Below are positions 6,799 through 44,576 of a stretch of DNA of 44,576 nt, in pieces; the stretch's first letter is position 1; each line of letters starts with the position of its first letter. The DNA lies in the IMG/VR virus record IMGVR_UViG_3300046018_000237, positions 1-44,576 of that record. The stretch is one strand, 5' to 3'. This DNA comes from a virus. The notes beneath the pieces are model-generated. The model was not told the origin of the DNA. It worked only from the letters and a program-made list of their open reading frames with translations, and made no database searches. The position numbers and the translations under genes are program-made.

Positions 6799-6968
6799 TT
6801 TTCCCCCAGCACCAATGCTCTAAATAGTTTGTTAATATTCCCATCAAACGCCAGCGCCAACTCACGAAGACGAGCGTACTCTTTCTCCGTAAGCATAATC
6901 GTCACCAGCTTCCGTGGCGTCTCTTCCGACCTGCGTGGTCGTCCCTTTTTGCCCGATGTTTCTTTCAT
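6795..6968 (-). CDS. Ribbon-helix-helix (Arc/MetJ-like) regulator, 57 aa
   Basis: After a basic leader (GKKGRPRRSEETPRK), residues 20-52 show the RHH pattern: a short strand (KLVTIML), helix 1 (EKEYARLRELALAF) and helix 2 (INKLFRALVL). It is the first gene of the leftward operon and therefore a candidate autoregulator or early repressor. No ribosome site is visible. The promoter -10 box ends six bases before the ATG, so the message may be leaderless. Its stop overlaps the next start (ATGA). Confidence 0.8.
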   Translation of the reverse strand: MKETSGKKGRPRRSEETPRKLVTIMLTEKEYARLRELALAFDGNINKLFRALVLGEK

Positions 6969-6977
6969 GGATATAAT
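6949..6977 (+). promoter_or_regulatory. Candidate rightward promoter for structured RNA
   Basis: TTGCCC (6949-6954), a 17-base spacer and a perfect TATAAT (6972-6977) form a sigma-70-like promoter on the plus strand. Transcription would start near 6984 and run into the terminator at 7112-7159 before any long gene. It overlaps the start of the RHH gene on the other strand. Confidence 0.45.
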
Positions 6978-7003
6978 TTACTTTATTATTTTATGCAAGT
7001 CAA
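6975..7003 (-). promoter_or_regulatory. Leftward early promoter
   Basis: On the minus strand TTGACT (7003-6998), a 17-base spacer and TAAATT (6980-6975) resemble a sigma-70 promoter for the operon starting at 6968. The -10 box ends six bases before the ATG. The RHH protein made from the first gene is a natural candidate to bind here. Confidence 0.5.
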
Positions 7004-7165
7004 TGGGGCAATAGGACCCCCGAACCAATTTAATCATGGAAGTAATAAGATGATTCGGGGGAGTGGTGACAAGCCACAACGGAACGAGGATACTCGTATA
7101 ACTTAAGCATAAAAAGAAACCCCCAAAGAGCAAGTTAAACTTGGTTCGGGGGTTCTTTTCTCAAC
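6984..7165 (+). ncRNA. Candidate structured RNA or attenuated leader upstream of primase
   Basis: This 180-base stretch has no convincing gene but holds four ordered hairpins: CCCCCGAA 7017-7024 with TTCGGGGG 7054-7061; GTGG 7063-7066 with CCAC 7074-7077; ACGAG-GATA-CTCGT 7084-7097; and the terminator stem 7112-7159. In an alternative fold the first strand, 7016-7028, pairs perfectly over 13 bases with 7141-7153, the last arm of the terminator. Mutually exclusive pairings of this kind are typical of attenuators and riboregulators. A promoter-like sequence lies just upstream. It could be a separate small RNA or the leader of the primase gene. Confidence 0.45.
7112..7159. terminator. Bidirectional-looking hairpin terminator
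   Basis: AAAAGAAACCCCC (7112-7124) pairs with GGGGGTTCTTTT (7148-7159) apart from one bulged A, with a nested CAAGT/ACTTG stem in the loop. T runs flank both sides. It is unusual in lying between two divergent genes rather than after a gene, which supports a short transcript ending here. Confidence 0.6.
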
Positions 7166-7196
7166 TAAGACGGGCTATGCCTGTAAACTTTACACA

Positions 7197-7225
7197 TTGA
7201 TTTTAACTTTTCGCAAGGGTATTTT
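7197..7225 (+). promoter_or_regulatory. Candidate promoter of primase-helicase gene
   Basis: TTGATT (7197-7202), 17 bases, then TATTTT (7220-7225), with the ATG at 7263. The predicted leader of about 30 bases includes the GGAGGGG ribosome site. It lies after the hairpin terminator, so it would be independent of upstream transcription. Confidence 0.4.
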
Positions 7226-7262
7226 TGACCCCTCAATAAATGAATCGGAGGGGATTCTCAAC

Positions 7263-9737
7263 ATGTCTATGCAAAACTACTGTATTCCTGCGCTTGCTCG
7301 TGAAACTAAAGACTTCCAAATTGACCCATCTCAACTACCTAAAGCTATCGAAGAGGTAAAAGGGGAGTGCTACTATGGAGCTTTTGACGCTGAGTCCTTA
7401 ACAAAACCATATGGGAAATTGCGTCCAGCACTAAATTGCTACGTACTCGACTTTGACGCTGAACAATTAGAAGACGCAAAGAACGAAGTAATAAAAGTCT
7501 GGAAATTCTTAAATCTCTCCCCGCGCCATGCTCGGATATTTTTTTCCGGAAACAAAGGATTTCATCTCTACTTACATCACTCATTGCTTAACCTACCTTC
7601 GTCAGCGGTCCTGAACACCCAAGTAAAAGCTTGGGCAAAAGGCTTAGAGCGTGAGCTTTCACTCAAAACACTCGACATGTCCGTATTCGCCCCAACACAG
7701 AAAATGCGGCTACCTCGCTCCAAGCACCCAAAGTCAGGCCTATACAAAACCGAAATCACCTTCGAGACTTTGCAGTTAGAAACCATTAGTAACATTAAAC
7801 TCGCCGCCACCCGACAATCGCCCTGTTCCATAGCGGACCTTATTGCAAGTGACGCGCCACTAGAAAACGTACCAAATAGCCCCGCACCAGAGATCATTGG
7901 TTCGGGGATTTTCGGAACTGAGAACCTCCTCACCGAAGAATACCCAGTCTTCAAAGAAAGCTTATGCATCCAAAAAATGTGGGACACCAATGTAGGCGTC
8001 GGCCACCGCCACGAAGCTTACAAAGCTCTCATCCAAGATGCGAAAGACTGCGGCAGAAGTGAACACGATCTACAATACGCACTTAATAAATGGGCCATCC
8101 TTAATAACTGCGAGGACCGACTCGACACCGACATAAAAAGAGTAGTGGAAGCTGTCTACCATGGCTCGGGGTTTAAATTCGGCTGCTACACTTCCATTAA
8201 AGCGAACTACTGCTCGGCTCACTGTAAAATATTCCAGAAGTTAGACGTAGCAAAGCGTGCCAATCCCTCTGACATCAAGGAACTAAGCGCAAGACCCACG
8301 TCATATATAGCTAAAAAACACACTGAAATATTAGCTAAAATGGAATCCATCACCGATCCAAAAGAGCTCAAGAAAGCTGAAAAAGAAAAAGAAGCTATCG
8401 AAAGAAAACTAGAAAGAGAAAATGAACGCCTCGCTAGAAAAGAAGAAAGAGCTCTTGAGAAAAAAGAAGAGCGTCAAGCTCGTAAAAAAGAATATCAAGA
8501 AAACCTCCCCGTCTCAGGTTTTAAAGAATGGGGAGAAAAAGGCCCAAAATGTACCATTGGTAACATCAAGCACATGCTCTCCGAGCTCGGTATCGAAATT
8601 AGATACGACGTTATTAAAAAAGACCTAGCCCTCCTCATCCCAAATAGTCGCTTCCTCATCGATACCGAAAAGAACGACAAAATGAACCACATCGTATCTC
8701 AAGCGATTTCATGTGACATGAACTACGGAAAGGTAGAAGACTTCGTCGCCTACATCGCTTCACAAAATCCATATAACCCAGTCGCCGAATGGATCGACTC
8801 CAAAGCTTGGGATGGAACCTCAAGAGTGCAAAGCTTCTACGACACCGCTGTCGCTAAAAAAGAATACGACCCAAAGGTTCGGGGGCTTAAAGAAACCCTC
8901 ATGAAACGCTGGATGGTCTCCGCCATCGCCGCTGCCTATCTCCCTAACGGCGTCTCAGCCCACGGCGTCCTCGTCTTCACCGCTAAACAATACATCGGTA
9001 AAACAAACTGGGCCCTAAACCTCGCTCCTCGAAGCATGAAAGTAGTAAAGGACGGAGCAACCCTCGACCCAAAAGATAAGGACAGCACCTACGAATCACT
9101 GTCCCACTGGATCGTGGAACTCGGAGAACTAGACGCCACCTTCAAAAAAGCCGACATCGCCCAACTTAAAGCCTTCATCCCTAAAACCCACGACAGCATC
9201 AGGCTCCCCTACCGCCGTGAACCCGCCAAGTTCGCTCGTCGTACCGTCTTCTTCGGCTCGGTGAATGACAAAGACTACTTAAACGACCCAACCGGGAACC
9301 GCCGCTTCTGGACCATTGAACTCGAATCCCTGAACCACTCCCACAACCTAGACATGCAGCAAGTATGGGCAGAATTTAAGCACATGTTCGATCAAGGTGA
9401 AGCATGGTTCCTCTCCCCTGAAGAAATGACCATACTCAATGAACACAATGAAGACTTCATGGTTAAAGACCCCATCGAAGAAAAATTGGCCGTTCGAATT
9501 AAATTCGGCAGCGATAAAGCTACCTTCAAAACCACCACCCAAATCGCCGAACTAATAGGATTCCAAAACCCGAAGCACGGTGACCAAATCAGGATCGGTA
9601 GAGCTTTAGGGAAGATGGGGTTTGAACGAAAGCAACACAGGCTCGGGGGCTCGGTGGTTTGGGGGTACTTCATCGACCTGAATAATGAAAATAACGAATT
9701 TACTCAAGACGAAGAAGTAGTCCCAGCACCATTCTAA
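7263..9737 (+). CDS. Fused AEP primase and VirE-type helicase, 824 aa
   Basis: ATG 7263 is chosen because GGAGGGG precedes it; the frame also opens at TTG 7197 without a ribosome site. The N-terminal third is an archaeo-eukaryotic primase: metal-binding DFD at 63-65, SGNKGFH at 95-101, and an Asp-containing third motif near 138 (LDMSVF). A Cys group around residue 310-325 (GC..., CSAHC) may bind zinc. A Lys/Glu-rich coiled coil follows (about 350-425). The C-terminal half matches VirE/D5-like replicative helicases, with a Walker A-like KQYIGKT near 578, GELDATF, an RR pair and GNRRFW. The first Gly of Walker A is Ala. It should prime and unwind phage DNA near the candidate origin at 10.1-10.4 kb. 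Confidence 0.92.
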   Translation: MSMQNYCIPALARETKDFQIDPSQLPKAIEEVKGECYYGAFDAESLTKPYGKLRPALNCYVLDFDAEQLEDAKNEVIKVWKFLNLSPRHARIFFSGNKGFHLYLHHSLLNLPSSAVLNTQVKAWAKGLERELSLKTLDMSVFAPTQKMRLPRSKHPKSGLYKTEITFETLQLETISNIKLAATRQSPCSIADLIASDAPLENVPNSPAPEIIGSGIFGTENLLTEEYPVFKESLCIQKMWDTNVGVGHRHEAYKALIQDAKDCGRSEHDLQYALNKWAILNNCEDRLDTDIKRVVEAVYHGSGFKFGCYTSIKANYCSAHCKIFQKLDVAKRANPSDIKELSARPTSYIAKKHTEILAKMESITDPKELKKAEKEKEAIERKLERENERLARKEERALEKKEERQARKKEYQENLPVSGFKEWGEKGPKCTIGNIKHMLSELGIEIRYDVIKKDLALLIPNSRFLIDTEKNDKMNHIVSQAISCDMNYGKVEDFVAYIASQNPYNPVAEWIDSKAWDGTSRVQSFYDTAVAKKEYDPKVRGLKETLMKRWMVSAIAAAYLPNGVSAHGVLVFTAKQYIGKTNWALNLAPRSMKVVKDGATLDPKDKDSTYESLSHWIVELGELDATFKKADIAQLKAFIPKTHDSIRLPYRREPAKFARRTVFFGSVNDKDYLNDPTGNRRFWTIELESLNHSHNLDMQQVWAEFKHMFDQGEAWFLSPEEMTILNEHNEDFMVKDPIEEKLAVRIKFGSDKATFKTTTQIAELIGFQNPKHGDQIRIGRALGKMGFERKQHRLGGSVVWGYFIDLNNENNEFTQDEEVVPAPF

Positions 9738-10064
9738 TTACTTCACGACATTAAATACTACAGGTAGCCATCGAGGTTTTTTAGCTTTGATGGCTGCTTT
9801 AGTTTTAGCGATGGGTAAGTTTAAGCGTTTACCATCAATTAAGTATATAAACTCGGGGGCTCCTTGGTACTTTATAAGCTTCTTCCCAAGTAACTCCTGA
9901 ATAGCTTTAGCCCCGTCCTCTGTTAAACCCGCCCACAATACTAGACTATCAATTGTTAATTGAACATCTCCTCCAGACACTCCTTTGATGCGGTCAAGCT
10001 CTGCAAAAGAGGTTCCGGGGTGGTGTTTTATGTAGTCGTAAATAGCTTCTTTTAGTTGAGTCAT
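9738..10064 (-). CDS. Winged-helix-like DNA-binding protein, 108 aa
   Basis: The first 60 residues (AIYDYIKHHPGTSFAEL...VSGGDVQLTIDSLVLW) look like a winged helix-turn-helix, followed by a short strand region (KLIKYQGAPEFIYLIDG) and a basic tail (AAIKAKKPRW). AAGGAG precedes the ATG at 10064. It is convergent with, and directly abuts, the primase-helicase gene, and its start faces the iteron region. It is thus a good candidate for an origin-binding or copy-control protein, by inference. Confidence 0.65.
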   Translation of the reverse strand: MTQLKEAIYDYIKHHPGTSFAELDRIKGVSGGDVQLTIDSLVLWAGLTEDGAKAIQELLGKKLIKYQGAPEFIYLIDGKRLNLPIAKTKAAIKAKKPRWLPVVFNVVK

Positions 10065-10107
10065 TTGCTTTCTCCTTTTTGGGTCATTTTTCGGTTGGTT
10101 CGGGGGT

Positions 10108-10201
10108 TGTCACCATACTGTCACCATATAGCGGGCACCACATGGTGACACTTATTCCCCAATGATTTCATAAAATTATACTACTGTCACCATGTCACCA
10201 T
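10108..10201 (+). repeat. Iteron group 1 (TGTCACCAT x4, plus one inverted)
   Basis: Exact copies at 10108-10116 and 10119-10127 (11 bp apart, one helix turn), 10185-10193 and 10193-10201 (overlapping, 8 bp apart), and an inverted copy at 10142-10150. The 17-bp double repeat 10185-10201 is the exact reverse complement of 10352-10368. Confidence 0.9.
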
Positions 10202-10351
10202 TAAAAAGTAGTAAAACTCTATATGCTATAATTACAAAATAAATACGAATTACACATAGTGTTATTACAATGCGCGCCCCGCCGTGCTCTAAAAAACGTG
10301 CAATTTATTTTAATTTTTCTGCTGGTGGGTTTTGAAATAACCATGTCTCAC

Positions 10352-10368
10352 ATGGTGACATGGTGACA
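10352..10368 (-). repeat. Iteron group 2 (two inverted TGTCACCAT)
   Basis: ATGGTGACA occurs at 10352-10360 and 10360-10368, sharing one base, and mirrors the pair at 10185-10201. A degenerate copy (ATGTCTCAC) lies just before it. Together with group 1 it brackets the AT-rich core. Confidence 0.9.
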
Positions 10369-12885: not shown

Positions 12886-12989
12886 TATTTGATTACCACG
12901 CTGATCTGATTGATTACTTGAGACGCTACACAGATTGTAGCGATCGCTAACATTACTAAGCTTGATTGAAAGATAGTATCTAGTTTCAT
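12885..12989 (-). CDS. Membrane or signal-bearing microprotein, 34 aa
   Basis: After MKLDTIFQS, a hydrophobic segment (SLVMLAIATICVA) gives one membrane span or uncleaved signal. AAAGGA lies eight bases upstream. Its TAA overlaps the next ATG. It is the first gene of the second leftward operon. TATAAA also sits just nine bases before the ATG, so the site may act as both -10 box and ribosome site. Confidence 0.6.
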   Translation of the reverse strand: MKLDTIFQSSLVMLAIATICVASQVINQISVVIK

Positions 12990-13189
12990 GTCATGTCCTT
13001 TATAAGCTATTAAACAATTAGTGTTTAATGTCGTGTTGCCTACATTCATATATAGTGCAATCGACGTGCCATGTTTTTAAACGAATTTAGTGTATGTGTT
13101 TTGAATGATTACAATTAGTTAGCTATTAAGTGATTTCGTTGCGAGTGTAAAATTTTCTAACACTGTATAATATTTACACATAAAATAAT

Positions 13190-13214
13190 AAACTAAACCA
13201 AATCGGTTTAGTTT
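13190..13214. repeat. Perfect 10-bp inverted repeat
   Basis: AAACTAAACC (13190-13199) and GGTTTAGTTT (13205-13214) flank a five-base loop. It is AT-rich and, on the minus strand, is followed by ATTATTTTA, so it could be a terminator for leftward readthrough or an operator. Confidence 0.7.
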
Positions 13215-13581
13215 CCCAGCCATTCTCACCGAGCTCCCCGAACCAATAGGACACTTGACGCACTGAACCATAGAAATAAACGAAATTCGTTTATAATTAC
13301 AATAGGTTACAAGGTCTGATAATGATTGTTATGTTAACTAGTCCCTAGGTTCGAACCTACGAGCCCCCGAACCATTGCCTTGTCTACTATATGTCTCAGT
13401 GGATCGGTGGAAAAACACCGGGAGTTAATTTCTTCAATGATAACAATAGGTTACTCAAGTACTTAAAATCATTAGTGAAAGGGGGATATGGGGGTCTGTT
13501 TGTCTGTTGGTGTCGTCTACGATGTCTTTGGCGGGTGGGGACTAAGTGATGACTGGTCAAAAATTTGACTGATTAAACTAT

Positions 13582-13609
13582 TTGCATTGAGTATTATTTA
13601 CCGTATAAC
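13582..13609 (+). promoter_or_regulatory. Candidate late promoter before TerS
   Basis: TTGCAT (13582-13587), a 16-base spacer and TATAAC (13604-13609), then eight bases to the ATG at 13618, the same layout as at 10736. No ribosome site is visible. It would drive the whole structural block. Confidence 0.5.
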
Positions 13610-13617
13610 TTTTATAT

Positions 13618-14433
13618 ATGTCACGCAAACCAAGCGCCAAAGGTACTTACACCCAAAAAGAATACAGCTTTAACCAGCTCGTGACGCAGCTTGAAGACCC
13701 CCGATCCATGCTTAACTTGCTCCCCGAGGACCACCGAGCCAACGCGCTCAGTATTCCCGATGACTGGTTAAATCTTGACGAAGACACCATCCTAAATAAG
13801 CTCAAGAACGAAAAGAATTATACCCCGACGAATACTATTGAGTGTTTAAGAAACAATTTTTGGATGGAGTTCGAGCGGGTACAGCTTACGAAAAGCAAGA
13901 ATGAGATGATGAACATTACGAATGTTTATCTGGGGGTTTGTACTCGTGAGTATTGGTTTAAGATTCTAAACACCGACCGACATTTATTTGCTTATATTAT
14001 GACAAAGTCACCTGCTTACGAGGCGGCGATGGCTGGGTTATTAAGCTTAGCGACTCGTAGGATTCGGGATGTGCTTTCTTTGCCTATTGATCCTGACGGA
14101 GATCCAAAGCTTATCGAGCTTGTGCTTAAGGCGGCAGCGATGGTGGATCTCAGAAACAAAGGCGGCTACTTGAATAGAAGTGAGACAAAAAATCTCACGA
14201 TGATGAAGCAAGAGACGACGCATAGTTATTCGCATATGTTTAGCGCCACGGGGAGAGCGAAGGATGCTGCTGATTCGCTGCTTGATATTGACGAGAAGTT
14301 AAAAGCTTTAGAGGCAGAGATAGCGGGAACCCCCGAGCCAGTAGTCCTTTCGACCCAAACCGTAACCACACAAACGGTAGAAGCTTCCGATACGATTGAT
14401 GCGGAGTACACGGAAGTACCAAAGCGTGGCTGA
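13618..14433 (+). CDS. terS: Terminase small subunit, 271 aa
   Basis: The call rests mainly on its position directly before the large terminase, with overlapping ends, and on its form: a basic N-terminus, a helical middle, and an acidic, Thr/Val-rich tail (ETTHSYSHMF..., SDTIDAEYTEVPKRG). TerS recognises the packaging site on phage DNA and hands it to TerL. There is no Shine-Dalgarno sequence, and the -10-like TATAAC ends eight bases before the ATG. The GGCTCGGGGG-family word (as CCCCCGAGCC) occurs near its 3' end at 14330. Confidence 0.75.
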   Translation: MSRKPSAKGTYTQKEYSFNQLVTQLEDPRSMLNLLPEDHRANALSIPDDWLNLDEDTILNKLKNEKNYTPTNTIECLRNNFWMEFERVQLTKSKNEMMNITNVYLGVCTREYWFKILNTDRHLFAYIMTKSPAYEAAMAGLLSLATRRIRDVLSLPIDPDGDPKLIELVLKAAAMVDLRNKGGYLNRSETKNLTMMKQETTHSYSHMFSATGRAKDAADSLLDIDEKLKALEAEIAGTPEPVVLSTQTVTTQTVEASDTIDAEYTEVPKRG

Positions 14434-15946
14434 TAATCTAGATGCGAAACAACGGAAGTTAGAGCTTTTAGAGAAAAATATCAAGCTACGTCGTCAGCTC
14501 CCGCATTTATACGGGTGGAAGAACTATCCGTGGATGCGGGAGTTTTTGGAGTGTACGAATCGGACGATGTTTTTAACGGCGGCGAATCAGATTGGGAAGA
14601 GCTCTATACAGATCAGGAAGATTATAGATTGGGCCACCGATCCGAAGAAGTGGGAGTATTTGTGGCCCGGTAGAACGCCGAGACAGTTTTGGTATTTGTA
14701 CCCCTCGAGAGAGCTTGCGACGGTGGAGTTTGATACGAAGTGGATTCCTGATTTTTTGCCAAGAGAAGAGATGAAGGATCATCCGCTGTATGGTTGGAAA
14801 GAGCAGCGTACCGCTAAGAAGGAAATACACTCTATAAGGTTTAATACGGGGGTAATAATATACTTTAAAACGTATATGCAGGACGTGATGAACCTTCAAG
14901 GTAGCTCGGTTGATTGGGTTGCAGCGGATGAGGAGTTGCCCAACGAGCTATATGATGAGTTGAACCAGCGGCGCAATGCGGTTGATGGTTATTTTAGTAT
15001 GGTGTTCACGGCTACTTTGGCGCAGGAGATATGGCGGAAGACGATGGAGCCAAAGGGCCAAGAGGCTCCGGCGTTCCCAGATGCTTGGAAGAAGCAGGTG
15101 AGTTTATTTGATTGCAGGGTTTACGAGGACGGGACGAAGTCGCATTGGAGTGACGAGAAGATTCAGCGCTCGATTAATTCGTGTAAGAGTGAATCGGAAG
15201 TGCTGAAGCGGATCTACGGTAAGTTTGTAGTGGACGGTGGTCGGAAGTATCAAAGCTTTGAGGTGACGAACAATGTTTGCAAGTCTTTTAAGATACCTAT
15301 GGATTGGACTCGGTATGCTGGGGTTGATTTGGGTGGTGGTGGAGACGGTCACCCGAGTACTATTTCATTCATAGCGGTAAAGCCTGATTACTCTATGGGG
15401 GTAGTGTATAGGCATTGGCGAGGTGAGGGAGAGCTTACTACGCAGACGGATGTGGCGAATAGATTTATTGAGATGAAGGTGGGTCAGAATATTTCGTCGG
15501 CCTATTACGATTATTCCGCTAAAGATTTTAAGACAATTACGGATAGGATGGGGTTAAGCTTTCAACAAGCGGAGAAGAGTCATGAGATTGGTGGACAGGT
15601 ACTTAACAGTTTGTTCCGTAATAAAATGCTGTACGTATTCGATATTCCTGAGTGCGAGCCGATCGTCACGGAGTTTTTGTCGTTGCTTCAGAAGACTGAG
15701 AAGCGAAATGCGAAGGACGATTCGGTAGATTCTGTTCGGTACGGTGTGACAAAGATACCTTGGGATTGGTCTAAGGCGGAAGTAAAAATACAATTTGATC
15801 CGAGTGAGATGAAGACAGCTACCCCACATGAGGAAGCTTTAATTGATCGCATGAAGGATCGGGAGGCGATGTTTCGTGGTATTCGGGATCAAGAAAGAGA
15901 AAGAATTGAAGACGAAATTGCAATGTGGGGAGAGCTCTATGAATGA
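14426..15946 (+). CDS. terL: Terminase large subunit, 506 aa
   Basis: The packaging ATPase-nuclease. Walker A-like AANQIGKS is at about residues 53-60, and Walker B VDWVAADEE follows. The C-terminal RNase H-like nuclease shows VDLGGGGDG, YYDYSAKD and DDSVDSV, giving the expected spaced acidic residues. The GTG at 14426 is chosen: it overlaps the TerS stop by a few bases, and GGAAG lies nine bases before it. An ATG at 14399 in the same frame is an alternative that would overlap TerS more. TerL docks on the portal at 16228 to pump DNA. Confidence 0.95.
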   Translation: MADNLDAKQRKLELLEKNIKLRRQLPHLYGWKNYPWMREFLECTNRTMFLTAANQIGKSSIQIRKIIDWATDPKKWEYLWPGRTPRQFWYLYPSRELATVEFDTKWIPDFLPREEMKDHPLYGWKEQRTAKKEIHSIRFNTGVIIYFKTYMQDVMNLQGSSVDWVAADEELPNELYDELNQRRNAVDGYFSMVFTATLAQEIWRKTMEPKGQEAPAFPDAWKKQVSLFDCRVYEDGTKSHWSDEKIQRSINSCKSESEVLKRIYGKFVVDGGRKYQSFEVTNNVCKSFKIPMDWTRYAGVDLGGGGDGHPSTISFIAVKPDYSMGVVYRHWRGEGELTTQTDVANRFIEMKVGQNISSAYYDYSAKDFKTITDRMGLSFQQAEKSHEIGGQVLNSLFRNKMLYVFDIPECEPIVTEFLSLLQKTEKRNAKDDSVDSVRYGVTKIPWDWSKAEVKIQFDPSEMKTATPHEEALIDRMKDREAMFRGIRDQERERIEDEIAMWGELYE

Positions 15947-16235
15947 AGCTTCTTTCAAAATGGAAGATATATGTGCCATAATTAAAGAGTGCGGCAAATC
16001 TGGGGTCAAGCGGTTCAAGTACAAGGATATTGAACTCGACTTTGACGGACCCCCGAGCCAACCAGACCAAACCCCGGTCTATTCACCCGAACAGTTAGAA
16101 ATCGCAAATTCTCAGACCCGAGAAGCGAATAAAGAAGAGGCTACTCTCAAGCAAGCAGAGGAGCTCGATCAATTATTAATTGAAGATCCGATCGGATACT
16201 TCGAAGCTTTTAGGCAAGGGAAGATAGATGAATAA
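15939..16235 (+). CDS. Hypothetical protein between terminase and portal, 98 aa
   Basis: ATG 15939 follows GGGGAGAG, while the longer frame to 15876 lies inside TerL. The N-terminal third (ICAIIKECGKSGVKRFKYKDIELDF) matches a pattern seen in small proteins at this place in many podoviruses; the rest is acidic and Gln/Glu-rich. It overlaps TerL and the portal gene by eight bases each. A role in head assembly is plausible but unproven. It carries a CCCCCGAGCC word at 16050. Confidence 0.75.
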   Translation: MNEASFKMEDICAIIKECGKSGVKRFKYKDIELDFDGPPSQPDQTPVYSPEQLEIANSQTREANKEEATLKQAEELDQLLIEDPIGYFEAFRQGKIDE

Positions 16236-18393
16236 GAAAAATTTAAGGCATCAAGATTTGATTAAGCTCTACAAAGAGGGCGACCAAGCGGACAACGTGA
16301 TCTACGCTGAACAGCGAAGCAACTTAATGTTAGTTGCTGGTAATCACTATACGAAGAAGGGTTCTAGATTTTGGAACCGTATTAGAGAAGATCGTGGTCT
16401 TACTCAGGACCAGCGAATCAGGCTTACAAAGAATCATATACAACGTGTGTGTAAGATTTATGAGAACAATATTTTATCATATGCTCCAGGTGTTTCTATC
16501 GAGCCGAAGAACATGGCGGAGCTTCAGGATCAGAAAGCAGCAGAGCTTAACAATGCAGTATGGATGGACATTGTAAAGCGCCACAAGTTTAAGCAGAAGA
16601 CTCGTGAGTTTTGCCAAGATTTTATTCGTGTAGGTGAAGTGTGTGCAAAGATTTATTGGGACGAAACTAAAGGTCAGCTTGTTGGGTACGAGCAAAAAGT
16701 AGATGAGATGGGTCAGCCGATGCATGAGACGATGCAGGGTCCTCATCCACTAACAGGTCAGATGGTAGAGATGCCTGACGAGTCGAAACCTATTCAAGAT
16801 AAAGAGAAGCCTAGATTTTCAGGGGATATCGTCATTGAGCGATTTTTTGGGTTTAACGTATTCCGCTCTCGAGATGCTAAGTCTATGGAGGACAGTTGGT
16901 TCATTGGTCTTCGTAAGATGGTTGACGTTGACGAGTTGAAGACTCGAGTGGGCGACGACGAAGAGAAGCTTAAGTACATTCAAGCTTCTAAAGATGAAAC
17001 CTTCATGATTTTTGATTCAAGCAATACATCGTATGCCACCGAATCACAGAACCAATGTTTACTTTTAGAGATGTACATTAAACCAAGCATTCAGTTCCCA
17101 AAAGGCTATTACTACATTTACACAAATGCGGGTATCCTATGGGAAGGAGAGCTTCCGTTTGGTGTATTTCCGATTGTATTTACAGGTTTTGATGAAGTCC
17201 CTACTAATCCTCGCTATCATTCTATTATTAAGCATCTTCGTCCATACCAAGCGGAGATTAACCGCATGGCGAGTTCAGCGGCAGAAGCGCAGATCACGAT
17301 GGGGCAGGATAAATTAATTACCCAGCCGGGCCAGAAGATTCAAAACGGTGGGTTGTTACCTGGTATTCGTTCAATCCAAGTAAGCGGGGCTCCTCCTACT
17401 ATTCTAGCGGGTAGAGTTGGGGATCAGTGGTTACAACCAATGGCGCAAGCTATTGAAGAGATGTACCAGATTGCAAACCTTCAGGAAGATTTACAAGAGA
17501 AGCCTTCTCAAGTTGATCCATACACCATGCTTTTCCAAACGATTGATCAGAAGAAAAAGTATGTGATTTACGTAACTAAGTTCATGCAGTTCTTGCAAGA
17601 CGTAGCTGAGACAAGTCTTACTTTGATGAGAGAGTACATTGAGGACGAAGCTTTAATTCCAGCAATTGGAAGATCAGAGATGATCAACATTCCTGAGTTT
17701 AAAAGCTCTAAGCCTCTTTGCTACAACATCTCTGTAGAGAGTGGAACTGAGGATATGGAGAGTAAGATTGGTAAGCAGCTTATGTTTAACCAAGTTATTC
17801 AGTTTGCAGGATCTCAGCTTGATAAAAAAGATCTCGGCAGAATGATTCGTACTAGCCCTTATGCAAATAATGAGCAAGCATTTGAAGATATGACGCTTGA
17901 TTACGACAATGCGACGAATATGCTTCTAGCTTTAGACCGTGGGGAGCAATTCCAACCAAATCCGCAGGATGATTCGTCGTATATGATGAAAAGACTTGTT
18001 GCTCGTTCAAGAAAAGCTGATTTCAAGCAGTTATCTCCTCAAATTCAGCAAAATTACATGAATGTGTATCAGCAATACGTTCAAATTGGTGCAGAACAAG
18101 CGCAAAAGATTAAAGACGCTGAAGCAGGATTCATTCCTGTAACTGGTGGAGCAGTAGTATGTGATTTATACGTCCCAGATCCAAATAATAAGTCTAAACA
18201 ACAGAGAGTTCGTGTTCCTTACGACTCTTTACAGTGGTTAATTCAAAGAATCGAAGAACAAGGTGTCACTCAACAAGGCATGGCTCAACAAACACAGCAA
18301 GTGCAGTCGGATGTGGGTTCTAAACTCGCCGAACAGCAATCTGTGCAACCAAATGCGGGGGTAGGTTTAACACAACCGCAGATTCAGGCTTAA
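16228..18393 (+). CDS. Portal protein, 721 aa
   Basis: The dodecameric channel through which DNA enters and leaves the head. The size is right for large podoviral portals. The N-terminal region (LIKLYKEGDQADN..., NHYTKKGSRFWNRIREDRGLTQDQRIRLTKN split along residues 9-70), the KIYENNILSYAPGVSIEP phrase and the acidic, Gln-rich C-terminal tail are typical of the P22-like/pfam portal group. It follows TerL and precedes the scaffold, the canonical order. The tail (QQTQQVQSDV...) is low-complexity. Confidence 0.9.
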   Translation: MNKKNLRHQDLIKLYKEGDQADNVIYAEQRSNLMLVAGNHYTKKGSRFWNRIREDRGLTQDQRIRLTKNHIQRVCKIYENNILSYAPGVSIEPKNMAELQDQKAAELNNAVWMDIVKRHKFKQKTREFCQDFIRVGEVCAKIYWDETKGQLVGYEQKVDEMGQPMHETMQGPHPLTGQMVEMPDESKPIQDKEKPRFSGDIVIERFFGFNVFRSRDAKSMEDSWFIGLRKMVDVDELKTRVGDDEEKLKYIQASKDETFMIFDSSNTSYATESQNQCLLLEMYIKPSIQFPKGYYYIYTNAGILWEGELPFGVFPIVFTGFDEVPTNPRYHSIIKHLRPYQAEINRMASSAAEAQITMGQDKLITQPGQKIQNGGLLPGIRSIQVSGAPPTILAGRVGDQWLQPMAQAIEEMYQIANLQEDLQEKPSQVDPYTMLFQTIDQKKKYVIYVTKFMQFLQDVAETSLTLMREYIEDEALIPAIGRSEMINIPEFKSSKPLCYNISVESGTEDMESKIGKQLMFNQVIQFAGSQLDKKDLGRMIRTSPYANNEQAFEDMTLDYDNATNMLLALDRGEQFQPNPQDDSSYMMKRLVARSRKADFKQLSPQIQQNYMNVYQQYVQIGAEQAQKIKDAEAGFIPVTGGAVVCDLYVPDPNNKSKQQRVRVPYDSLQWLIQRIEEQGVTQQGMAQQTQQVQSDVGSKLAEQQSVQPNAGVGLTQPQIQA

Positions 18394-43501: not shown

Positions 43502-44576
43502 TTATTCCGCTTGTAATAGCTCTTTTAACGCGATGATGTTGGACGCTAAATCTTTTTTATCTCGAAGCGCTTTAAGAACTATTTCGTCCACAGTACCTCG
43601 AGCTACGAGGTCAATTCTTGTTATTTTTTTATGTATCTCAGAGCCGCCTCTGAAGTTACGTGCTTCACTTTGGAGATCGTGCTCGAGAGAGTAATTTTTA
43701 GAATAATAAATCATCGTGCTCGCTTGAATTAAATTAATTCCAGTTCCCCCAGCAGATTGCGAAGCAACCATCACACGGCATTTCGGGTCCGTTTCAAAAC
43801 GATCAATTTCTGCTTGTTTATCCTTAGTCAAACCCGTGACAGTGGCGTAATTAATATCAAGTTTCTTTAAAATATTTTCAATCAACTCGTAATCGTGATG
43901 AAAGATACTCCACACAATAATTTTTTCGTTCGGAGAAATATCTTCGATAAGCTCCGTGAGTGTATCGGCTCGGGGGTTCTCTTTACACTTGTGTATCGAC
44001 CCGTCCTCAAGCTTTAGGAAGCCCGAGAGGATTTGCTGTAAGCGGAGAGCTTTAGTGATAGCAAGGTTTGCGACCGCCGCTTTCTCCCCACAGAAAGCAA
44101 TGAACTCTTTCTTCATGCTGTTGTAAAGCTTCTTCTGCTCGGAAGATAACTCAACATCAACCTCTGTATACACTAATGGGGGTAAGTCCAAGCAACTTTC
44201 CTTCTTCGCGGTAACTGACACGTGCGAGATTAGACTTTTTATTTCTTCATCTGCGCCGTCCTTGGCAACCCAATCTGGGAAATGCCGTGTTTTTGGCATA
44301 TACGCATTTTTGTCACGGAAATATCTACCTCGAAATTTAAAATAGTTTGTCCCAAAGGTTTTTCCCATGTCCAAGAATAGAAATTGCGAGAATAAGTCGG
44401 CTTGAGTATTTAGGACAGGTGTCCCCGTCATTAGGTACTTGTACTTCACAGGGAGCTTTTCCATTGAGTACGCAACCTTCACAATAGCTTTAGTACGCTT
44501 CGCTCCAATGTCCTTGATACGGTGTGATTCGTCCAAGATACAAATAGTCGGCGGGTTATTAATCACCGCTTGGCTA
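43502..44576 (-). CDS. SNF2/DEAD-like helicase, C-terminal part and overlap (5' part at 554-1)
   Basis: Continuation of the gene beginning at 554. Here are motif II (DESHRIKD), motif III (MTGTPVLN), the second RecA lobe with SQSAGGTGINLI (motif V) and QSEARNFR (motif VI, Gln/Arg fingers). Motif VI reads RNFRGGSE rather than the usual RxxRxGQ. The window end cuts the frame at 44576. In this copy residue 44449 gives Val where the left copy has Met. The 470-aa joined protein is a full two-lobed SF2 ATPase, likely remodelling stalled forks or recombination intermediates. Confidence 0.92.
   Translation of the reverse strand, partial: SQAVINNPPTICILDESHRIKDIGAKRTKAIVKVAYSMEKLPVKYKYLMTGTPVLNTQADLFSQFLFLDMGKTFGTNYFKFRGRYFRDKNAYMPKTRHFPDWVAKDGADEEIKSLISHVSVTAKKESCLDLPPLVYTEVDVELSSEQKKLYNSMKKEFIAFCGEKAAVANLAITKALRLQQILSGFLKLEDGSIHKCKENPRADTLTELIEDISPNEKIIVWSIFHHDYELIENILKKLDINYATVTGLTKDKQAEIDRFETDPKCRVMVASQSAGGTGINLIQASTMIYYSKNYSLEHDLQSEARNFRGGSEIHKKITRIDLVARGTVDEIVLKALRDKKDLASNIIALKELLQAE
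44361..44576. repeat. Right copy of terminal overlap (circular join)
   Basis: Repeats 1-216 with one difference (C at 44449). Removing one copy gives a 44,360-bp circle and restores a single helicase gene. Confidence 0.95.

Follow-up and report, generated by a model that had tools for sequence, protein, structure and literature searches.

The stretch between positions 6949 and 7262 of the viral genome analyzed here is a spacer separating two divergent operons, and it raises a specific question: Do its hairpins and mutually complementary segments constitute an RNA switch that gates the replication gene lying just downstream, as a sequence-only reading had proposed, or do they arise from something else? 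The window, by which we mean the whole stretch of DNA that was analyzed, is a virus record of 44,576 bases with direct terminal repeats of 216 bp, because of which the genome is probably complete. Besides the primase-helicase following the spacer, it has genes for the terminase large subunit, the portal protein, and a DNA polymerase. Among annotated phage records, none had DNA similar to the window around 6949-7262; the identity of the C-terminal half of the primase-helicase with phage records does not exceed 47%, and scans of viral contigs with single proteins returned no relatives. Pam3-like proteins in the window might point to a cyanophage origin; its Pam3 gp34-like protein had no match among phage records, and a portal alignment against genomes retrieved no host. 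The features on which the argument turns are the following.

1-216 and 44361-44576: identical 216-bp direct terminal repeats
6949-6977, plus strand: sigma-70-like promoter sequence TTGCCC-17-TATAAT (10/12), overlapping the start codon of the divergent minus-strand gene
6975-7003, minus strand: leftward promoter-like sequence TTGACT-17-TAAATT (9/12)
7017-7027, minus strand: exact copy of the word TGGYTCGGKGG, inside the segment ACCCCCGAACCAA (7016-7028)
7051-7061, plus strand: copy of the word with one mismatch, containing TTCGGGGG (7054-7061), which forms an 8-bp hairpin with 7017-7024
7063-7077, plus strand: hairpin GTGGTGACAAGCCAC, containing a second over-represented genome word, TGGTGACA
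7084-7097, plus strand: hairpin ACGAG-GATA-CTCGT
7112-7159, both strands: predicted bidirectional intrinsic terminator with a T-rich tract on each side
7142-7152, plus strand: exact copy of the word in the 3' arm of the terminator, partner in a 13-bp match
7243-7258, plus strand: putative ribosome-binding site GGAGGG of the primase, flanked by the short repeats GAATC and GATTC, as read from sequence only
7263-9737, plus strand: primase-helicase (VapE-like domain; DNA primase/helicase PHROGs), with its ATG at 7263

The promoter claimed for the plus strand is indeed present at 6949-6977, but matches of this kind occur in the region at chance frequency, the consensus scan having found three against 2.9 expected. 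The leftward site would, from its predicted start point, yield a nearly leaderless mRNA of the minus-strand gene, the ATG of which lies at 6968; the two promoter-like sites, facing opposite ways within 6949-7003, share positions 6975-6977. The small hairpins and the terminator hairpin also lie where they had been placed, all ahead of the primase ATG. In the terminator, CCCCC (7120-7124) pairs with GGGGG (7148-7152) around an inner stem CAAGT/ACTTG, and the hairpin has a folding energy of -21.0 kcal/mol on the plus strand (z -3.84 vs shuffles) and of -23.5 kcal/mol on the minus strand (z -4.15). A simple terminator pattern misses it, its loop being long and itself folded; yet a stable hairpin with a T-rich tract on both strands makes 7112-7159 a credible bidirectional terminator. 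The remainder of the spacer, 7160-7262, folds no better than shuffles (z -0.81).

Taken as RNA, the segment 6984-7165 folds at -56.6 kcal/mol, well below its shuffles (-38 +/- 4.1; z -4.58). The alternative pairings that had been noticed are real: 7016-7028 can pair with 7054-7061 or, over 13 perfect pairs, with 7141-7153, and only one of 1000 dinucleotide shuffles of 6949-7262 produced a perfect inverted repeat of 13 bp or more. Refolding 6984-7165, as had been proposed, gave two near-isoenergetic structures, one at -55.9 kcal/mol when the 7017-7024/7054-7061 hairpin is enforced, with the terminator still forming, and the other at -56.6 kcal/mol when the 13-bp pairing is enforced. Along the growing transcript, thermodynamic folding gives the terminator fold the lowest energy at each length tested, from completion of the terminator to 7160, and the alternative fold overtakes it only at 7165, past the U-tract, by 0.7 kcal/mol. 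In thermodynamic terms, termination would therefore be the default, and since nothing in the sequence forces the alternative fold, a ligand or an antisense RNA would be required to impose it. The consensus scan detected no promoter for such an antisense RNA within or after the leader, the sole minus-strand match (7003-6975) facing away, and no family of Rfam 15 reached its gathering score in the window.

Why, then, should so short a spacer hold segments that pair so well? Among the most over-represented k-mers of the window are GGCTCGGGG, GGTTCGGGG, and TGGTTCGGG, which merge into the degenerate word TGGYTCGGKGG. Allowing up to two mismatches, this word has 70 sites in the window against 17.3 expected, a number not reached in any of 100 shuffles; at up to one mismatch its density is about one copy per 1.6 kb. 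The segments at 7017-7027 (minus), 7051-7061 (plus), and 7142-7152 (plus) all belong to these 70 sites. Copies inside genes occupy each of the three codon frames in either orientation, which implies that the word is maintained as DNA; a coding artifact is rejected by the same distribution over every frame and both strands. Further copies relevant to its orientation are listed here.

9639, 9647, 9655, and 10096 (span 9639-10106), plus strand: copies of TGGYTCGGKGG
13235, 13364, 13698, 13731, 14330, 16050, and 17036 (span 13235-17046), minus strand: copies of TGGYTCGGKGG

The word accounts for the 13-bp match between 7016-7028 and 7141-7153, since its copies at 7017 and 7142 lie in opposite orientation. 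Its usual neighbor is T (14 of 28 copies before, 20 of 28 after), so that an agreement of 13 bases between two exact copies of the same variant is ordinary. Moreover, the 5' arm of the terminator is also a run of five C, which renders the four segments automatically interchangeable. We thus consider it reasonably probable that 6949-7262 is an inter-operon spacer with a bidirectional terminator and three copies of a dispersed word, the alternative pairings being a by-product of the word rather than a selected switch. The opposite-facing copies at 7017 and 7142 are perfectly complementary, and their core recurs both in the copy at 7051 and in the C5 run of the terminator's 5' arm; any RNA read through the spacer can consequently pair in two ways. 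The terminator would probably stop a short plus-strand RNA begun around 6984 (about 175 nt) and may keep the transcripts of each operon out of the other, while transcription of the primase would probably begin beyond the terminator, on its downstream side. The three copies within 140 bp are denser than elsewhere, and this local cluster may have a role of its own. A dispersed DNA word can in this way imitate an RNA switch, a trap for searches that start from structure.

The word is not peculiar to the window. When viral contigs were scanned for pairs of the word in inverted orientation, 16 loci came up, among them L010, which is rich in TGGYTCGGKGG and belongs to a relative of the window phage (capsid 71%, portal 59%, and terminase 56% identical). 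A search by portal alignment then gave 46 related loci totaling 486 kb, in which exact copies number 69 against 0.6 expected, these relatives not being independent of one another. Nearly all exact copies occur in phages whose portal is at least about 57% identical, and a more distant group (L051-L054, L056, L057, L059-L064) has only three; the pattern reversed, taken as a control, is rare in the relatives. In an unbiased word count that excluded the window, GGTTCGGGGG ranked high, with 26 occurrences against 0.57 expected in 13 of 17 loci, and neither outgroup phages nor phages sharing the primase alone had it among their top words. The word is therefore a dispersed one in the full sense, far above expectation, on both strands, in all frames, and lineage-wide. 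A search for the host through inverted pairs of the word gave 119 stretches from scattered taxa, with no clear excess of the word in the loci counted.

Orientation is the second property of the word. Counting copies with at most one mismatch, we find 10 on the plus strand and one on the minus strand of the window up to 10.1 kb, against one and seven at 13.2-17.1 kb, a flip with p 0.001 for a breakpoint chosen on the same data. The flip repeats in the relative G012, with 10/0 and then 2/5 copies (p 0.003); when the position of the single breakpoint is left free, the test yields p 0.14 in the window and p 0.02 in G012. Pooling the relatives, which are mutually non-independent, counts are 18/5 upstream and 27/68 nearer the portal (p 2e-5). 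The GC skew of the window changes sign at 12-13.5 kb, as it does at an origin. Because its orientation flips around the skew minimum near 10-13 kb, TGGYTCGGKGG most likely has its function at the DNA level, which might be one in replication or recombination. At the change of sign lies a long stretch without evident gene, 12886-13617, with copies of the word near 13.2-13.4 kb; we regard it as a candidate replication origin. Given an origin at the skew change, the complement CCMCCGARCCA would be on the lagging-strand template on both sides. A further step, which we put forward only tentatively and consider rather doubtful, is that the word is a lineage-specific polar signal acting genome-wide, with CCMCCGARCCA on the lagging-strand template to either side of an origin at 10-13 kb, and that a replication or recombination protein of the phage reads it. 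One such reader might be the primase-helicase, since many copies lie in its gene and leader; to our knowledge no protein is known to read this word. A lineage-specific word that is apparently oriented around a likely origin would provide a testable handle on the replication of uncultured phages.

Known oriented words offer partial parallels. Chi and KOPS are likewise short, G-rich, and biased in orientation; the bias of TGGYTCGGKGG appears to flip around an origin presumed from GC skew. Their usual placement relative to GC skew is opposite to that of TGGYTCGGKGG, the G-rich strand of which coincides with the C-rich strand as judged by skew, and their sequences differ from it. The DNA uptake sequence (DUS) of Neisseria, inverted copies of which can form transcription terminators (PMC3388099), resembles our word in being short, dispersed, over-represented, on both strands, and inside genes. 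Unlike DUS, TGGYTCGGKGG sits in phage genomes, with no host carrying it having been found and no hint of DNA uptake, and only one arm of the 7112-7159 terminator is a copy of it.

What do the relatives have in front of their primase? The leader is readable in four of them, L073 (which is G012), L079, L119, and L080, the near-identity of L079 and L119 reducing these to three distinct relatives. None of the four leaders contains the word arrangement of the window or a plus-strand terminator, and two exact-pattern scans of all viral contigs for the arrangement yielded nothing. The conservation of the paired segments, proposed earlier as a check, is thus absent from the primase leaders of relatives and from the other viral contigs scanned. 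Since these relatives are distant, the nearest primase being 47% identical and the left-hand genes different, this absence is a weak but one-sided test. The gap is not empty in the relatives, which carry on the opposite strand a candidate small RNA of the phage.

L079, 2849-2922, minus strand: candidate small RNA in the gap before the primase
L119, 13297-13370, minus strand: the same
L080, 2837-2914, minus strand: the same
L073, 11573-11651, minus strand: the same

This RNA, of about 75-80 nt, consists of a hairpin GCRGC-GUUC-GCYGC, a second hairpin with the loop AUUAGUCC (AAUAGUCC in L073), and a closing terminator of 12-16 bp with a T-run. Among three sequences, both partners change in seven pairs, a level of covariation attained in none of 500 shuffles, and both hairpins also hold in the fourth sequence. 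The covariance model built from the three sequences (R1) finds L073, which was left out of it, with 59 bits and an E value of 1e-11. A match of 21 bits in L035 proved on inspection to be an ordinary intergenic terminator. At the loci of the small RNA Rfam gave no match, and no promoter-like site for it passed the consensus scan. Its 8-nt loop AUUAGUCC is the complement of GGACUAAU, and the relatives start many genes with the extended ribosome-binding site GAGGACTAA closely before the ATG: seven small genes in L043, six genes in L116, and five in L028, with further cases in L119, L080, and L025. AGAGGACTA is among the strongest words of the lineage (28 vs 1.1 expected). The gap of the relatives thus holds a well-supported candidate for a new phage small RNA, which would likely act as an antisense RNA on a whole family of ribosome-binding sites. 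The c4 antisense RNA of phages P1 and P7 is similarly aimed at a ribosome-binding site, with the complementary sequence in loops (PMC12197685). The small RNA of the relatives, not that of the window, is like c4 in being a phage RNA with loop complementarity to ribosome-binding sites; unlike c4, it is separate and closed by a terminator, and its complementarity to the ribosome-binding sites of many genes resides in one loop. In the same relatives, a hairpin-like word, CGCGCAAAGGATGCG, which is absent from the window, is repeated in clusters of small genes (L025:1095-2522, L028:2941-5601, L048:3086-4978, all minus strand), some copies lying shortly upstream of a GAGGACTA start site, and CGCGCAAAGG occurs 36 times against 0.24 expected.

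These comparisons bear on the rival explanations of the spacer. Were it an attenuator, RNA begun at 6984 would fold 7016-7028 with 7054-7061 together with the terminator (off), or else 7016-7028 with 7141-7153 and 7057-7061 with 7120-7124 (read-through), the choice being left to an antisense RNA, a protein, or a ribosome. Four compatible segments with energies within 0.7 kcal/mol are indeed also typical of genuine two-state RNA, a counterpoint to the word as explanation, and a strong promoter-like site and a terminator do precede a replication gene. The rep mRNA of pT181 and pIP501 is controlled by attenuation through antisense RNA and competing leader pairings (PMC5703833), and the window resembles it in having competing pairings, one of them a terminator, ahead of a replication gene, with the intrinsic terminator between the promoter-like site and the start codon. 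It departs from this model in that the scan gave no promoter-like match from which an antisense RNA to the leader could start, folding does not favor read-through, the arms are copies of a genome-wide word, and there is no conservation. With its arms being dispersed-word copies, the terminator fold leading on the growing chain, and the arrangement absent from the leaders of relatives, the claim of an RNA switch gating the primase is not supported, and we judge an attenuator unlikely. The broader proposal of a short RNA or leader that gates the replication initiator survives in part: A short plus-strand RNA covering about 6984-7159 is possible, but its gating role is unsupported. Nor does a terminator between the operons lack another simple explanation, as had been argued, since all three distinct relatives have an opposite-strand terminator there that closes a different small RNA.

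That RNA of about 175 nt might instead be a free-standing, trans-acting phage small RNA running from 6984 to about 7159, the local counterpart of the opposite-strand RNA of the relatives. Promoter-like site, hairpins, and terminator stand in series, with a z of -4.6, and three distinct relatives do encode a small RNA in the same gap; against this, the window is rejected as a member of family R1, its best score in 6900-7300 being 2.0 bits, on the opposite strand and not significant, it has no GGACTAA family of ribosome-binding sites, no segment of the leader is antisense to any such family in the window, and the arrangement shows no conservation. We hold this possibility to be improbable, if less so than the attenuator. 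Far more remote is the idea that the hairpins are DNA operators, with 7063-7077 (TGGTGACA) and other pieces binding a phage regulator of both divergent promoters. It draws on the 12 occurrences of TGGTGACA against 1.35 expected, with a cluster at 10108-10368, on seven exact copies of ATGGTGACA in that interval, several of them in tandem, beside the putative HTH gene at 9738-10064, on another copy before polA (41049), and on a weak HTH match of the 9738-10064 product; yet the copy in the leader is one mismatch from the 9-mer, while one-mismatch matches elsewhere are near chance. The dispersed-word reading of the spacer leaves as main objects of interest the word itself and, in the relatives, the small RNA. 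The ATGGTGACA repeats at 10108-10368 are for their part candidate operator or origin repeats.
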